Program-made: the position numbers and the translations under genes | Source of the DNA: an uncultured bacterium | Lineage (GTDB): Bacteria; Oederibacteriota; PGYV01; Palsa-1178 | Direction of reading: 5' to 3' | DNA: 64,000 nucleotides | NCBI GenBank assembly: GCA_937889595.1 | Contig: CALAOR010000088.1 | Coordinates: 1-64,000 of the forward strand | Shown: piece by piece, positions 20,154 through 49,168 of the stretch | Numbering within the stretch: position 1 is the stretch's first letter | Layout of the letters: every line of letters starts with the position of its first letter | The notes under the pieces: generated by a model | Told to the model about the DNA's origin: nothing | Databases searched by the model: none | What the model saw: the letters and a program-made list of their open reading frames with translations, nothing else

Positions 20154-20597
20154 CTAGACTTTGCTTTTTTTAACTTTGGGCTTTAACTTCAGGTTCTGCC
20201 TTTCCAGCATATCGGCAAGCGTGATTGAATTCATGAACTCCAGAGTGCGCAGTTTAAGCTCCGACCACACGTCGCGCCAGGCGCAGGTTCTGCTGCGGGT
20301 GCAGCCGGCCGGGTCGCTGACACAGAATACAGGGTCTATGGAGCCTTCGGCTACGGTTACTATCTCGCTTAAAGTTATTCCCTCGGGGGCCTTTGCCAGC
20401 ACAAATCCGCCGTTCTTTCCCTTGGTGCTGCTGACCAGACCCACGCCAACAAGCAGGCGCATTATGTTTTCAAGGTATTTAACCGATATTTCCTGGTCCA
20501 ATGAAATTACTTTCAAGGATACGGGCCCCTTGCCATATTTTGCCGCGAGGTGTAAAAGCGCCCTTGAAGCATATCTGCCTCTGGTTGAAATTCTCAT
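20154..20597 (-). CDS. Rrf2-family transcriptional regulator with three Cys (copy 1)
   Basis: A 147-residue winged-helix regulator: MRISTRGRYASRALLHLA opening, recognition helix ISVKYLENIMRLLVGVGLV, wing GKNGGFVLAKAPEGITL, and the iron-sulfur-type cluster region FCVSDPAGCTRSRTC with three Cys as in IscR/NsrR. It probably senses redox, NO or cluster status. The ATG at 20597 has AAGGAG; an upstream in-frame ATG includes that site. A strong sigma70 promoter followed by a palindrome (20634-20653) just upstream suggests autoregulation. Confidence 0.92.
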   Translation of the reverse strand: MRISTRGRYASRALLHLAAKYGKGPVSLKVISLDQEISVKYLENIMRLLVGVGLVSSTKGKNGGFVLAKAPEGITLSEIVTVAEGSIDPVFCVSDPAGCTRSRTCAWRDVWSELKLRTLEFMNSITLADMLERQNLKLKPKVKKSKV

Positions 20598-20633
20598 TGC
20601 ATTCTCCTTCAATATTCCGCATTTTTTAGGCTA

Positions 20634-21313: not shown

Positions 21314-21760
21314 TTACGTTCCTGTATCGGGAATTTCCTTAAGAAGTTTATCCGGCATTTTCTGGCCCGATATTGCTTCAAGACTGATTGATTCAAGATA
21401 TTTTACGGTTACTTCCCTCAGATCCTGCCACATTTTCATGGACTTACAGCTTTCCTTAAGCGCGCATATCCCGGGATTATCCAGACAGGGAACCGGCGAC
21501 AGGGTTCCTTCAGACGTCCTTAATATGTCTGCCATTGTTATTTCTTTCGGGCTTTTAGACAGTATAAAACCGCCGCTTTTACCCTTTGCACTGATTACAA
21601 ACCCCGCGGTAGCAAAAGTTCTCATAATAGTTTCAAGATATTTTAAGGATATTTCCTGTTTTTCTGATATTGCGCGTATGGTAACCGGCCCGGCCCCGTA
21701 ATGCTCGGCGAGCATTATCATGGCGCGTAAAGCATACCTGCCTCTTGTTGAAAATTTCAT
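21314..21760 (-). CDS. Rrf2-family transcriptional regulator with three Cys (copy 2)
   Basis: A 148-residue Rrf2 protein: MKFSTRGRYALRAMIMLAEHYG, recognition helix ISLKYLETIMRTFATAGFV, wing GKSGGFILSKSPKEITM, and a PCLDNPGICALKESC cluster motif with Cys at about 92, 100 and 106. It should bind an Fe-S cluster and sense NO, oxygen or redox state. Its own promoter (21818-21862) carries a C-TAC/GTAG-type site shared with four other places in the window, which makes it the leading candidate for the regulator of that set. Confidence 0.92.
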   Translation of the reverse strand: MKFSTRGRYALRAMIMLAEHYGAGPVTIRAISEKQEISLKYLETIMRTFATAGFVISAKGKSGGFILSKSPKEITMADILRTSEGTLSPVPCLDNPGICALKESCKSMKMWQDLREVTVKYLESISLEAISGQKMPDKLLKEIPDTGT

Positions 21761-21817
21761 GTTTTAACACCTCGCCCATACTTTCATCCGGCTCAAATAC
21801 GTGACTCGATTTTAATT

Positions 21818-25461: not shown

Positions 25462-25668
25462 TTTCCTTCTCCTTATTATTTTTAGTACTTTCTGCAGCTC
25501 TGCAACTATATAACTCACCGCTCCCAATTAAAACCCCTTTTTTTGTTTTAAATCCGATTTTATCAGCCTGCCACCTCCTAAAATTATAATCATTAATAGC
25601 GCATGTTATTTCAACTTAAATCATTGAAAAACTTTCCTAAACAGATAATCCTGCCTTAATTGCAACTT

Positions 25669-31911: not shown

Positions 31912-32700
31912 TTAAATCTCCGTGGGAGTCTGCCTTGTTCCGACTTCAATCGCTTTTTCAGCCGTATCCCAGTCAAGCCCGATATAATAAACATGCGGGT
32001 CAGTTCCCAAGTCCGGCAGCAGGCGCTGTGTCGGGTTCTCATCGATGAGTTTATATACTTCGCTGTTCTTATCTTTTATGTTGCCTATTATCCTTGCTTT
32101 TGCGGGGCAGGTATTCACGCATGACGGCACCATGCCATTTTCAAGGCGGTGAAAACAAAAATCACATTTGTCGGCCACTCCGTACCTTCTTGCCGGATAA
32201 TCCTCTTTGCCTTTGTCGTAACCCCTGCGCCATCCGAAAGAACGCATCCCGAACGGGCACGCGTTCACGCAGTACCGGCAGCCGATGCAGATGCTTTTAT
32301 CGATCTCGACTATTCCGTCAGGACGCTTGTATGTGGCCGTTGTCGGGCAGACCCTCACGCAGGCGGGGTTCTCGCACTGGTTGCAAAGGCGCGGTAAAAA
32401 ATCCCTTTCAGCTAACGGATATTGCCCTTTTTCCACCTGGACCACCCAGGACCTGAAATTCCCAATTTGCACATTGTTCCCGCTTTTGCACGCAGCGGAA
32501 CAGGAATGGCACCCATAGCACTTTCTCAGGTCAATAACCATTGCCCAGCGTGTTGGGGAAGCTTCGGGTTCTTCCGCAAAAACTTTTTCCGTAATTGCGG
32601 CAGCGGTTACTGCAACCGCACCCAGGCCGGCGAGTTTTATAATATCCCTCCGCCCGTATTTTTTTTCATCTTTTTCCTTTTTAACGTCAGGCGTTTTCAT
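31912..32700 (-). CDS. Tat-exported four-cluster ferredoxin subunit (PsrB/DmsB-like)
   Basis: A 262-residue electron-transfer protein. Tat signal GRRDIIKLAGLGAVAVTAAA (about 16-35), then 16 Cys in four groups: CYGCHSCSAAC, CNQCENPACVRVCP, CIGCRYCVNACP and CDFC...CVNTCP, for four [4Fe-4S] clusters. It passes electrons between NrfD and the molybdenum subunit on the outside of the membrane. First gene of the operon. The catalytic subunit has its own Tat signal as well, which is unusual since partners often travel together. Confidence 0.95.
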   Translation of the reverse strand: MKTPDVKKEKDEKKYGRRDIIKLAGLGAVAVTAAAITEKVFAEEPEASPTRWAMVIDLRKCYGCHSCSAACKSGNNVQIGNFRSWVVQVEKGQYPLAERDFLPRLCNQCENPACVRVCPTTATYKRPDGIVEIDKSICIGCRYCVNACPFGMRSFGWRRGYDKGKEDYPARRYGVADKCDFCFHRLENGMVPSCVNTCPAKARIIGNIKDKNSEVYKLIDENPTQRLLPDLGTDPHVYYIGLDWDTAEKAIEVGTRQTPTEI

Positions 32701-32721
32701 TGAAAATTAACCTCCTAATTG

Positions 32722-32737
32722 CTACCGATTAAGTAGC
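32722..32737. promoter_or_regulatory. CTAC/GTAG operator in the leader of the molybdoenzyme operon (site C)
   Basis: GCTACCGATTAAGTAGC on the plus strand (32721-32737), an inverted repeat GCTAC-N7-GTAGC, followed by ATTATC. It sits in the 5' leader about 40 nt after the predicted TSS and just before the ribosome site, unlike the other copies, which abut a -10 box. Confidence 0.6.
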
Positions 32738-32775
32738 ATTATCTGAGAAAAAAATTTTCCACCGTAGTGTTTCGA

Positions 32776-32934: not shown

Positions 32935-33462
32935 CTATTTTAAATGTTTCGACAGGAAAATATCATAAAGAACCAGCGCTCTTTTTACTGTAATTGTCAC
33001 CGCCCTGGACGAAACCGTGGCGCCGGAAATTGCCTTTATATCCGAGCCTAACGCGATCGGATCCAGCAATGACTTGCCAATATACTGTTTTAGAAAAATA
33101 GGCTTCACAATACCTCTTCCCCTGCGTTCTTTCATTGATATGATAATAATATCCTTGATCTTCTTTGTGGCGGCGTCAATAAGTATCGCCATTTCTATCA
33201 TCCCGTGTTTTCCCTGCTCTTCATCAAGTATAACAGCCCCGGTTTTTGAAGGATATATGATATATACCCCTTTTACAGCTACCAGTTCCCCGACAATTTT
33301 ATTGACTTGTTCAATATCCGCGTCTGCCAGGATCAAGGATCTGGCCTTTAAATCAGAGTCCGGCAGCAGTTGTTTTACGATGTCGTCGGTTGATGAAAAT
33401 GCCGGCGTTGCAAGGAAAACAACCGTCAAAACAGCCATAATCAAAAAAAGCGTTTTTTTCAT
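32935..33462 (-). CDS. Exported FMN-binding-domain protein (flavinylated), copy 2
   Basis: A 175-residue protein: signal peptide (MKKTLFLIMAVLTVVFLATPAFS), single FMN_bind domain with flavinylation motif DIKAISGATVSS (about 143-154). Paralogue of the copies at 24931 and 33727; the domain order and ending (VKRALVLYDIF) are shared. Probably a soluble periplasmic flavoprotein in electron transfer to or from the quinone pool. AAGGAGG precedes the ATG. Its promoter carries operator site D. Confidence 0.9.
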   Translation of the reverse strand: MKKTLFLIMAVLTVVFLATPAFSSTDDIVKQLLPDSDLKARSLILADADIEQVNKIVGELVAVKGVYIIYPSKTGAVILDEEQGKHGMIEMAILIDAATKKIKDIIIISMKERRGRGIVKPIFLKQYIGKSLLDPIALGSDIKAISGATVSSRAVTITVKRALVLYDIFLSKHLK

Positions 33463-33571
33463 AGTTCATTTCCTCCTTGAATATTTTTTCACTGAATACT
33501 TTACAACTGCAGCTTTAAAATTGCTTCTTTACCTCTTTAAATTAGCGCCGGTAAATCCCGCATTTTATATC

Positions 33572-33616
33572 CTACTATTCTTGTAGCATTATACTTCACA
33601 GCATCCATATAGTCAA
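33572..33616 (-). promoter_or_regulatory. Promoter with CTACT-N5-TGTAG operator (site D)
   Basis: TTGACT (33616-33611), 17 nt, TATAAT (33593-33588), then CTACTATTCTTGTAG (33572-33586 on the plus strand) covering +1. Drives FMN-binding copy 2. Confidence 0.75.
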
Positions 33617-35660: not shown

Positions 35661-36170
35661 TTACTTTTTAATCCTTCTGAGCCACATTTCTTTGATCCAC
35701 ATCTCGTAGAAAGGCACTGCTATTTCTATCAGCGCGCATATCCCTATGGTCATCCCGGCCAGCAGGATCGTTATTGCAAACTGCGGCAGCACAAACCTGA
35801 CCAGGAACATGGATGATATGTCCAGAAGTATGGCAAGGAACGATATGGCAGGAACTACCGCTTTATAAACAGCAGGCACACCGGTGAGCATGAACACGAT
35901 GCCGAGGGTGAAAAACATTCCTGTCATCCCCAAAATATGGGTATGGGCGTGCGCAACCAGTTCGTTAAAATCCGGCGCGACAATCATGTTTGCTTCGTTG
36001 CCCCTGTAATGGTCAACTATGGAATTGTAGTTTAATCCCACATTGCTCAGCACATTCAAAATAGCCATAAGGTAGCCGCAGCCGATACAGACCAAGAACA
36101 TGGATATAAATACCTTTCCGTAGAAAGGCAACTTTTCCAGTCCTATTTCAGCAAAAATCGATTTTTCCAC
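35661..36170 (-). CDS. Four-helix membrane protein with HAHTH motif
   Basis: A 169-residue inner-membrane protein with four or five predicted helices (about 15-35, 70-92, 95-115, 122-145). The key segment NELVAHAHTHILGMTGMFFTLGIVF has three closely spaced His at the start of a helix, a pattern found in uncharacterised membrane proteins of respiratory clusters and possibly heme-binding. A smaller relative is at 9449-9835. The start is GTG at 36170 behind AGGAGG. First gene behind promoter E. Confidence 0.75.
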   Translation of the reverse strand: MEKSIFAEIGLEKLPFYGKVFISMFLVCIGCGYLMAILNVLSNVGLNYNSIVDHYRGNEANMIVAPDFNELVAHAHTHILGMTGMFFTLGIVFMLTGVPAVYKAVVPAISFLAILLDISSMFLVRFVLPQFAITILLAGMTIGICALIEIAVPFYEMWIKEMWLRRIKK

Positions 36171-36275
36171 TTTATTTGCCTCCTTTCTTTTTTTTATGCC
36201 ATGGCGCCCGGCAAACAGGCTTTTGAGCCATTTTTCTATTTATGATACCCCGTTTCACTTTCAACTGCCGTAATC

Positions 36276-36319
36276 CTACTCCTTCAGTAGCAATATAGCA
36301 TAATAATTTGTATTGTCAA
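36276..36319 (-). promoter_or_regulatory. Promoter with CTACT-N5-AGTAG operator (site E)
   Basis: TTGACA (36319-36314), 16 nt, TATATT (36297-36292), then the perfect palindrome CTACTCCTTCAGTAG (36276-36290) over +1. Best copy of the operator family. Drives the HAHTH protein and porin. Confidence 0.8.
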
Positions 36320-39179: not shown

Positions 39180-40037
39180 TCAGGCCCATTGTTCACTTAA
39201 AACATCGCCCTTTAATCCGATCACTATCACTTTTATGGGCACTTTTCTTTTGGAAAGCGACACAGCCTGCTTTGCCGCTCCTAACAAACCACCGCAGCAG
39301 GGAACTTCCATTATCATAACGGTTATTGTATTTACCATGGCGTCATCGATCATTGAAGTAAGTTTTTCCACATAAATATCCATACCTTCATCAAGCTTAG
39401 GGCAGGCAATAGCCAGTGATTTACCCTTCAGATAATCCTTGTGGAAATTTCCCATGGAAAAAGCCACACAGTCAGCAGCCAATAAAAGGTCTTTCTTCTG
39501 AAAGTAAGGCGCATTTGGCGACACTAAATGCAGTTGTATTGGCCACTGTTTCAGTTCTGACGGCTGTTTTCCCGTATTATCGTTACCGCCATTATCATCT
39601 TTGTCCGAAGAAAAATCAAGCGTTCTTGAACCCGGGCATCCTCCTCCTGCGTGAGCATGCCCCGCTTGATGCCTGGGTTTATCAAGGTCAGGGACGCGCA
39701 TATTATTCTTTTTTAGATAAACAACTGCTTCATTATAATAGACCGTTTCCCCATGATCTTTTAAGTGTTTTAAATGGGCAATTATTGTATTTTCACCCTG
39801 TTTTGAGATATTTGCCATGACTTTGTTTTCTTCGTATTTTACCGCTTCCCGTTTTTCAACTGTGATCGCGTCAACCGGGCATTCCCCTATGCAGGCCCCC
39901 AGTCCGTCGCATAGTAAATCAGAGACCAGTCTTGCCTTTCCATCTATTATTTGCAGGGCTCCTTCAGGGCATCCCGGTACGCAGTTCCCGCATCCATTGC
40001 ATTTATCATCATCTATTACCACGATTTCCCTGAGCAT
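39180..40037 (-). CDS. 2[4Fe-4S] ferredoxin-domain protein of hcp-type clusters
   Basis: A 285-residue protein: N-terminal two-cluster ferredoxin (CNGCGNCVPGCPEGAL, CDGLGACIGECPVDAI; residues 13-58), a linker with HQAGHAHAGGGCPGSRT, and a C-terminal domain with DCVAFSMGNFH, LAIACPKLD and EVPCCGGLLG. I know this arrangement from anaerobes, where it lies next to hybrid-cluster protein and is induced by nitrosative stress; no hcp is in this window. First gene of the five-gene operon behind the TATCAC/GTGATA promoter. AAAGGAG precedes the ATG. Confidence 0.88.
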   Translation of the reverse strand: MLREIVVIDDDKCNGCGNCVPGCPEGALQIIDGKARLVSDLLCDGLGACIGECPVDAITVEKREAVKYEENKVMANISKQGENTIIAHLKHLKDHGETVYYNEAVVYLKKNNMRVPDLDKPRHQAGHAHAGGGCPGSRTLDFSSDKDDNGGNDNTGKQPSELKQWPIQLHLVSPNAPYFQKKDLLLAADCVAFSMGNFHKDYLKGKSLAIACPKLDEGMDIYVEKLTSMIDDAMVNTITVMIMEVPCCGGLLGAAKQAVSLSKRKVPIKVIVIGLKGDVLSEQWA

Positions 40038-40062: not shown

Positions 40063-40109
40063 TATCACCTTCATTGTGATATTCTACAAGACAAAGGAGA
40101 TTTTGTCAA
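40063..40109 (-). promoter_or_regulatory. Promoter with TATCAC-N7-GTGATA operator (ferredoxin operon)
   Basis: TTGACA (40109-40104), 17 nt, TAGAAT (40086-40081), directly followed by TATCACCTTCATTGTGATA (40063-40081). The same 19-bp operator in the same position is at 49121-49139 before the IscR-like gene. The outer bases GTAG/CTAC extend the dyad here. Confidence 0.8.
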
Positions 40110-40137: not shown

Positions 40138-40190
40138 CCTGTGCCGGATACGACCTGTCATAAGGACTTTTCCGCCAGCACCATAAGGCG
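40138..40190. repeat. Partial copy of the repeat at 36840-36915
   Basis: CTGTGCCGGATACGACCT, then GTCATAAGG and CTTTTCCGCCAGCACCAT resemble 36842-36871 and 36906-36921, but the 30-bp hairpin present there is missing. Supports a dispersed family. Confidence 0.55.
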
Positions 40191-40201
40191 ATAATACTTT
40201 A

Positions 40202-40390
40202 CTTTGCTTGTATCCTATCCTTGACGCTTTATTATATATACCGCTTGTCCCGGCGCTTTAGCGCCGGGACTTGAGCGGGTATTTGTTTTGGACGTTAACC
40301 CCATGCTTTGCTTGTATCATGTCCTTGGCGCTTTATTATATATACCGCTTGTCCCGGCGCTGTAGCGCCGGGACTTGAGCGGGTATTTGT
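40202..40390. repeat. Tandem pair of 85-bp hairpin repeats
   Basis: Copies at 40202-40286 and 40306-40390 differ at only a few positions. Each ends in a strong hairpin centred on CCCGGCGCT/AGCGCCGGG with outer pairing ACCGCT/GAGCGGGT, preceded by the AT-rich TTTATTATATATACC. No coding capacity. Confidence 0.8.
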
Positions 40391-40437
40391 GGCTGTAAGC
40401 TTTTCGTCGCTCTAGCTCCTCAAAGCTAACAGCCACA
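40388..40437. repeat. Hairpin downstream of the candidate small RNA
   Basis: TGTGGCTGT (40388-40396) pairs with ACAGCCACA (40429-40437), and inside it TAGCTTTGAGGAGC pairs in part with AAAGCTTA. It adjoins the T-run of the small-RNA terminator. Confidence 0.55.
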
Positions 40438-40601
40438 AAAAAAAAGGCCCGCATTTCTGCGGGCCTTCTAAGATATGGGTGTAGGACGATATAAGGGGTT
40501 TTGGGAGGGGTTAGGGGGAAACCTACACCCATATTATCTTAGTTTATCTCTCATCTGTTTTGACTGCCTTGTTTAAAGAACGTCTTATATACCACTCTTT
40601 C
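40434..40601 (-). ncRNA. Candidate small RNA with C-rich loop
   Basis: From the promoter at 40592-40636 transcription would start near 40601 and run about 165 nt to a clean terminator (AAGGCCCGC/GCGGGCCTT, 40444-40467, then eight or more T). In between is a 13-bp perfect stem ATATGGGTGTAGG (40473-40485) with 40522-40534, closing a 36-nt loop that contains CCCCC, ACCCCTCCC and ACCCCTTAT. The last two blocks recur in the loop of the hairpin at 7662-7711. No ribosome site or credible ORF lies in the transcript. The C-rich loop could pair with Shine-Dalgarno regions. Confidence 0.6.
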
Positions 40602-40636
40602 AGTAGCATTATAACATAACAATTTCAAAAAGTCAA
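40592..40636 (-). promoter_or_regulatory. Promoter with CCACT-N5-AGTAG operator (site F)
   Basis: TTGACT (40636-40631), 17 nt, TATAAT (40613-40608), then CCACTCTTTCAGTAG (40592-40606). Same layout as sites D and E. The only thing downstream on the minus strand is the candidate small RNA. Confidence 0.75.
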
Positions 40637-40834
40637 GTTTCAGGGGTATGGTCCCAATTACGGATTTGTTCCTGCTACCGGGTTCCATACTTCCTGTTAG
40701 TTTTATTTTAGTCTTAAACCCGTTTCTTAATTACTCATTGTTTATATCAAATATGTTTTACTTTGTCAAGTTTCATAAAAAAATATCTTATTTGAAGCGG
40801 TCTTATGTGCCACACGCTGTATTGTAATATATTT

Positions 40835-41175: not shown

Positions 41176-41205
41176 AAAACCCCGGTTTTTAAAGACCGGG
41201 GTTTT
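41176..41205 (-). terminator. Terminator between the two MORN-like genes
   Basis: AAAACCCCGGT/ACCGGGGTTTT around a short loop, T-rich on the minus side; ends the transcript of the gene at 41230-41541. Confidence 0.85.
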
Positions 41206-48652: not shown

Positions 48653-49090
48653 TTATTGGGCTTTTTTGTTCATGGCAGTGTGTGAACCTGTCACTTCGCT
48701 CAGCGTTGTGTCCTTCAGGTATCCGCTTACCAGCTTGTCAAGCCTTACCCATACTTTCCTTATGCCGCATTTGGGGGCGTTGCCGCAGAAATCAAAATCA
48801 GCCGCACATTTTGTGGTGGCAGTGCCTTTTTCCACGGCCTGCAATATGTCAAATACAGTGATCTTATCCGGCGGGACCGCAAGCATAAAACCGCCTTTTT
48901 CCCCCTTTAGGCTTTTTACCAGATTTGCCTTCCTCATGGCGACGAATATATTCTCCAGGTACCTGTTTGAAATGTCCTCTTTGGAGGAAATTTCCTTGAT
49001 TGAAACAGGGGTGTTATTCTTCTCATCAAAAGATATGGCCAGATGGGTTAAAGCCCTCAAAGCGTATCTCCCTTTTGTGGAAACATTCAT
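48653..49090 (-). CDS. IscR-like Rrf2 regulator (copy 3)
   Basis: A 145-residue Rrf2 protein: MNVSTKGRYALRALTHLA, recognition helix ISNRYLENIFVAMRKANLV, wing GEKGGFMLAVPPDKITV, and Cys at CAADFDFCGNAPKC (C95, C102, C108 or so). Heads the iscS-nadA-iscU-mnmA operon like iscR of classic isc operons. A 19-bp operator right after its -10 box suggests autorepression. Confidence 0.93.
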   Translation of the reverse strand: MNVSTKGRYALRALTHLAISFDEKNNTPVSIKEISSKEDISNRYLENIFVAMRKANLVKSLKGEKGGFMLAVPPDKITVFDILQAVEKGTATTKCAADFDFCGNAPKCGIRKVWVRLDKLVSGYLKDTTLSEVTGSHTAMNKKAQ

Positions 49091-49120: not shown

Positions 49121-49168
49121 TATCACCTGTCGTGTGATAATTATAACAATTTTCAGCTCCGTTGTCAA
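49121..49168 (-). promoter_or_regulatory. Promoter with TATCAC-N7-GTGATA operator (isc operon)
   Basis: TTGACA (49168-49163), 17 nt, TATAAT (49145-49140), then TATCACCTGTCGTGTGATA (49121-49139). Identical layout and 15 of 19 matching bases to the site at 40063. Confidence 0.82.

Follow-up and report, generated by a model that had tools for sequence, protein, structure and literature searches.

What is encoded by an intergenic stretch that has its own promoter and terminator and, between them, a hairpin with a large C-rich loop? The question arises on the minus strand of the window, the 64,000-nucleotide stretch of DNA analysed here. Promoter P2 (TTGACT-17-TATAAT; 40608-40636) agrees with the consensus at 11 of 12 positions, has a TG preceding its -10 element, and points at a predicted RNA of approximately 165-168 nt (40601 to 40434). 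This RNA would contain a 13-bp perfect stem (arms 40534-40522 and 40485-40473; whole hairpin 40473-40534) enclosing a C-rich, nearly G-free loop of 36 nt, TTTCCCCCTAACCCCTCCCAAAACCCCTTATATCGT, and would end at an intrinsic terminator of 12 pairs and a T run (40442-40469). Within the loop lies the conserved core ACCCCTCCCAAAACCCCTTA (40492-40511), and the leader carries a boxA-like motif, GTTCTTTAA (40573-40581), a candidate Nus-factor site. Promoter, stem-loop and terminator were all located where the initial annotation had placed them, and sequence and structure prediction together describe a free-standing RNA with an accessible C-rich region. The fold is far more stable than expected from composition, both for the whole RNA (z -4.43) and for the hairpin alone (z -4.94), with 0 of 200 shuffles as good in either case. 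The annotation had also described the region as free of open reading frames, which is only partly correct: a 71-aa ATG frame exists on the minus strand (40532-40317), starting inside the hairpin and reading through the terminator, but it is not conserved as coding sequence. A conserved peptide was rejected, given that stop codons within the loop interrupt the frame in the orthologous hairpins from genomes G002 and G003. Further upstream, a second minus-strand promoter, P1 (TTGACA-17-TATAAA; 40741-40769), is followed directly by a 44-nt hairpin, CGGGTTTAAGAC..GGAACCCG (40679-40722, minus strand); both are kept in all four genomes of the bacterial family. The latter hairpin has no match in Rfam, and in G002 it is followed by a T run of its own.

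The RNA of the window belongs to an undescribed family, defined by a conserved C-rich loop on a hairpin, in an order of uncultured Goldiibacteriota, and we are all but certain that the region is a conserved structured RNA. The family core, ACCCCTCCCAAA(A)CCCCTTA, is carried on differing stems and occurs in at least 13 of the 14 genomes of the order, usually in one to five copies per genome, while the 31 genomes searched outside the order in the same phylum gave a single weak match. A strict pattern likewise matched 6 of 59 genomes in a set of relatives, all from the same order (one match for the reversed control). In the 3.42-Mb genome of the window the loop core occurs three times, always on the same contig and strand (7674, 40492 and 105025). 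The second copy of the loop that had been noted earlier is therefore real (minus strand, 7714-7659; a stem followed by nine T and GGAGG), and a third lies at contig position 105060-105013. At 7711-7640 the T run abuts GGAGG, and this segment looks like an attenuator or terminator beside a ribosome-binding site. A mechanical scan across GTDB contigs yielded ten stretches, of which those with the stem come mostly from FCPU426/Goldiibacteriota metagenome-assembled genomes. The stem was also seen in two such records titled Spirochaetia (L032) and Oligoflexia (L031); the titles are probably wrong, since the hairpin of the Spirochaetia-titled record is that of G002, a member of the window's own bacterial family. 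Pattern matches outside the order (Howlettbacteria, Phycisphaerales and Akkermansia) lack the long stem and were set aside as chance.

Evidence for function at the RNA level comes from the stem. Because MAFFT misaligned the stems across copies, we used covariance-model alignments instead, with a model built from seven hairpins and later widened to 31. In the seven-sequence alignment (A3), which was not fitted to the structure, both partners have changed in 6 of 13 pairs, and pairing is retained in 94% of cells. In the 31 distinct model-aligned sequences, where the alignment was fitted to the structure, all 13 stem pairs show compensatory changes (107 cells; 0 of 500 shuffles), and the covariation score is 0.65, as compared to 0.08-0.22 for slid partners. 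The hairpin downstream of mnmA is identical over approximately 60 nt in G006, G011 and G012, although its flanks are unalike and the MnmA proteins are ~78% identical. Stem covariation and this identity amid diverged flanks point to strong purifying selection on the RNA, and compensation in every stem pair, along with conservation across the order, bears out the proposal of a free-standing structured RNA. The aligned loops of the family contain on average 44% C and 3% G. In the 2.33 Mb of G005, loops on long stems hold 4 of 55 G-free strings with triple C-runs, relative to 5 of the 3680 strings with A-runs and 8 of the 5963 with T-runs. Rfam searches at gathering and permissive thresholds assigned the RNA to no family and yielded only sub-threshold, terminator-like matches.

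Sibling hairpins reside in untranslated regions near mnmA, rrf2, ogg, rpmH and a putative sodB. Copies in 3' UTRs follow mnmA, rrf2 and the sodB-like gene (identified by eye rather than by profile), and others follow ArsR-type genes, one of which adjoins rrf2; copies in 5' UTRs precede ogg (Pfam PF22175) and a gene for a small membrane protein, and rpmH is adjoined by a copy in two bacterial families. The leader of f3, a 140-aa response-regulator-like gene of G005 and its relatives, carries a tandem pair of hairpins. A boxA-like motif lies between the two (L118 1811-2102; G005:C6:162310-162601), and a sigma-54-like promoter (TGGCAC-N5-TTGCT) is found upstream of this leader.

When would such an RNA be produced? 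Two related Rrf2-type operators can be distinguished in the window: type I (TATCAC-N7-GTGATA) and type II (TGCTAC-N7-GTAGCA). The site at the sRNA promoter, TGCTAC-TGAAAGA-GTGGTA (40590-40608), is of type II with two mismatches and overlaps the last T of the -10 element. Five type II sites with at most two mismatches are present in the window, while other spacings give zero to three, and each of the five lies directly 3' of a -10-like hexamer. Thus, the site at the sRNA promoter recurs at four other promoters: upstream of an Rrf2-family gene (operator at 21817; gene 21314-21760, minus strand, Pfam PF02082), of a 4Fe-4S gene (perfect, 32720-32738; gene 31912-32700), of an FMN-binding-like gene (one mismatch, 33570-33588; gene 32935-33462), and of the gene at 35661-36170 (one mismatch, 36274-36292). 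The genes behind the sites at 32720 and 33570 are of respiratory type. Perfect type I operators precede a second 4Fe-4S gene (40063-40081; gene 39180-40037) and the Rrf2/IscR-type regulator that opens an isc-type operon (operator at 49121; gene 48653-49090, minus strand, Pfam PF02082). The former is also found near the 4Fe-4S gene in relatives, in some with one mismatch, and the latter in G003, G013 and G010. The Rrf2-type operator proposed by the initial annotation is thus genuine as a site and is shared with a set of redox and Fe-S genes; a palindromic operator is common to the sRNA promoter and the regulator's own promoter, as expected for an Rrf2/IscR regulon.

Operator and hairpin, whose joint occurrence in relatives had been put forward as a check, occur together in G001, G005, G013 and G010. 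G002 and G003 have the hairpin without a recognisable operator at the sRNA, and there the conserved promoter P1 further upstream may serve instead. P2 itself is conserved in G001, and its counterpart in G005, G013 and G010, which belong to a related genus, is TTGACT-17/16-TATAAT with a perfect type I operator. In G001 the site at the sRNA is a hybrid of types I and II, which suggests that the operator may have been rewired between Rrf2 paralogues. Three such paralogues lie inside a 30-kb part of the window (20154-20612, 21314-21760 and 48653-49090), alongside the two related 6-N7-6 operator types. The gene at 21314-21760 is a candidate controller of the sRNA in the window's genus. Judged as sequence, Rrf2 control of the sRNA is well founded, and its promoter looks to be under the control of an iron-sulphur or redox repressor.

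By analogy to RoxS, IsrR and 6C, the locus most likely encodes a stress-induced, C-rich sRNA, and we assign a probability of roughly 45% to the whole mechanism: a free sRNA repressed by an Rrf2 protein whose C-rich loop pairs in trans with G-rich mRNA stretches. An Rrf2-family repressor, sensing Fe-S clusters or NO/redox state, would sit across the end of the -10 element and block the promoter, and a shortage of Fe-S clusters or damage to them would switch the RNA on. Its rigid stem would then display the almost G-free, 36-nt loop in single-stranded form, allowing it to pair with G-rich stretches of several mRNAs, mainly near their ribosome-binding sites. Pairing would lower translation of the bound mRNAs and might do so without Hfq, as for RoxS, FsrA, IsrR and 6C, while UTR siblings at other Fe-S, sulphur and oxidative-stress genes could supply additional copies of the same loop. 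Hfq was found in 0 of the 14 genomes of the order, and its absence suits GC-rich seeds.

This mechanism has precedents. C-rich sRNAs are known to target G-rich ribosome-binding sites under the control of NO or iron (PMC8216469, PMC9410917): RoxS is induced by NO (PMC8216469), and IsrR contains C-rich regions and is controlled by Fur (PMC9410917). Like the RNA of the window, RoxS/RsaE, FsrA and IsrR of Bacillus and Staphylococcus have single-stranded C-rich loop regions, their own promoters and terminators, redox/NO or iron control, and no expected dependence on Hfq (PMC8216469, PMC9410917). In contrast to these sRNAs, the RNA of the window presents a single long loop closed by a 13-bp stem, belongs to another phylum, has siblings in UTRs and carries an Rrf2 operator, rather than sites for ResD or Fur; the Rfam searches gave no match that would indicate homology. 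For 6C RNA (RF01066) of Actinobacteria, C-rich hairpin loops and the possibility of several copies per genome, both as seen here, are described in PMC9569102, and a title cited there has the loops acting independently of chaperones. However, the RNA of the window fails the RF01066 model at any reported threshold, its stem and loop are unrelated in sequence, and the phylum differs; in addition, 6C has two hairpins with C-rich loops, whereas the RNA of the window has one and only the f3 leader (G005:C6) has a tandem pair. The RNA resembles known C-rich sRNAs in its mode, yet is not a member of any family tested.

That the sRNA controls translation, as the initial annotation had suggested, has so far not been borne out by the target searches. 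In G000, 55 of 60 composition-matched shuffled loops bind ribosome-binding sites equally well or better, and in G005 the loop is approximately one standard deviation better than shuffled loops; generic tuning against Shine-Dalgarno sequences finds no support in these comparisons. Extended complementarity revealed no conserved mRNA target in the order: the matches were opposite strands of the hairpins, stretches of coding sequence, or single sites lacking conservation. Two individual leads were dropped: AAGGGGTTTTAATTGGGAGCGG, which precedes the FMN-binding gene at 25539, has no counterpart at the related genes inspected, and GGGGTTTTG..GGAGG, located ahead of the MORN gene at 41183, is absent in G003. 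Further points count against the proposed mechanism: the 20-nt core is stricter than generic G-rich pairing needs, siblings in mRNA UTRs fit a role in cis or in protein binding equally well, one half-site of the window's operator is degenerate, and no operator is recognisable in G002 and G003. We nevertheless keep the antisense sRNA first, because pairing through C-rich composition alone would be invisible to both the shuffle and the extended-target tests. If correct, it would be a case of Rrf2/IscR-type Fe-S sensors, rather than Fur, controlling a C-rich sRNA. The family itself would be a small-RNA family backed by covariation in a candidate phylum; among the papers searched in full text, none joined Goldbacteria with small RNA. 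It gives concrete, testable predictions on RNA-level stress responses in bacteria without Hfq.

The main rival to an antisense sRNA is a role in protein binding or as a decoy, which we regard as possible though rather unlikely. The loop would be the recognition site of an RNA-binding protein (KhpA/KhpB or Rho/Nus being candidates), with UTR hairpins marking mRNAs and the free RNA titrating the protein. The presence of one loop in 5' UTRs, 3' UTRs and free RNA speaks for this reading, as does a core that is conserved but not optimised for pairing with ribosome-binding sites, and KhpA/B-type KH proteins (KH_KhpA-B) are encoded in 14 of 14 genomes, as compared to none for Hfq. C-rich, G-poor loops resemble the ligands of KH proteins or Rho, and in decoys such as CsrB/RsmZ and EutX/Rli55 the same hairpin occurs in free RNA and in mRNA leaders. 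The family shares this distribution, although it lacks both the GGA motif of CsrA and the dual hairpin of ANTAR systems. The proximity of one copy to khpB is explained by the neighbouring rpmH-yidC-khpB region. It counts against this reading that the boxA-like motif occurs in a minority of copies: it is over-represented, with 7 of 40 having it within 160 nt upstream (0.43 expected), but a single locus accounts, through its orthologues, for four of the seven. In CcsR/CcaF1 of Rhodobacter, too, sibling RNAs of the stress response are linked to an RNA-binding protein (PMC10253847); our family shares the sibling RNAs, while its copies are dispersed and Rrf2-type sites are in control. A more specific version, and a less probable one, is that in this Hfq-less order one protein, possibly KhpA/KhpB, binds the C-rich loop, shown on exchangeable stems, in UTR hairpins of Fe-S, sulphur and stress genes and is titrated by the Rrf2-controlled free copy; such a post-transcriptional network would link Fe-S cluster status to many mRNAs.

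It is considerably less likely that the hairpins act in cis as terminators or attenuators whose loop is oversized and that the copy at 40492 is merely a leader or terminator relic. Stems directly before T runs (7711, 105025, G007 and G001_C138), some of them just upstream of a Shine-Dalgarno sequence, agree with this possibility, but long T runs at the hairpin end are limited to a minority of copies, the window copy possesses a promoter of its own and a terminator apart from the hairpin, and a conserved 20-nt loop would be superfluous for a plain terminator. The T-run copies look like RepG of Helicobacter pylori, in which the C/U-rich loop of the terminator base-pairs with a G-repeat (PMC8295292), in contrast to the window copy with its separate terminator, and no G-repeat target was found for the family.

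A dispersed mobile repeat of the REP or MITE type, inserting between genes, is improbable. Several copies can occur in one genome, and three lie in tandem near a cysK-like gene in G004 (C54, L063 1071-1560; same orientation, ~200-230 nt spacing), yet a strict scan of G005 found four copies only, the mnmA, rpmH and rrf2/isc positions are kept between genera, and the stems differ among loci while covarying. Few copies per genome is the pattern of sibling RNAs, unlike that of an abundant interspersed repeat. Least probable of all is a function of the DNA itself, as a plus-strand G-quadruplex or minus-strand i-motif: the four plus-strand G-runs at 40495 are present as annotated and are the sole such match in the window, but four C-runs occur in just 23 of 36 aligned loops (three in 11, fewer in two), stem compensation indicates constraint on RNA, and promoter, operator and terminator consistently fix the C-rich orientation (G000, G001, G005, G013 and G010), so that the RNA carries the C-rich strand.

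Two minor features adjoin the sRNA gene. At 40386-40439 lies an interspersed hairpin with GAGGAGCTNGAGCGACGAAAAGC in its loop region, of a kind also present at L003, L005 and L016 and positioned directly after terminators at several places in the genome. Beyond it, 40189-40390 comprises a 98-nt duplication, its copies 90% identical at a spacing of 104, that contains GTCCCGGCGCTNTAGCGCCGGGAC palindromes.
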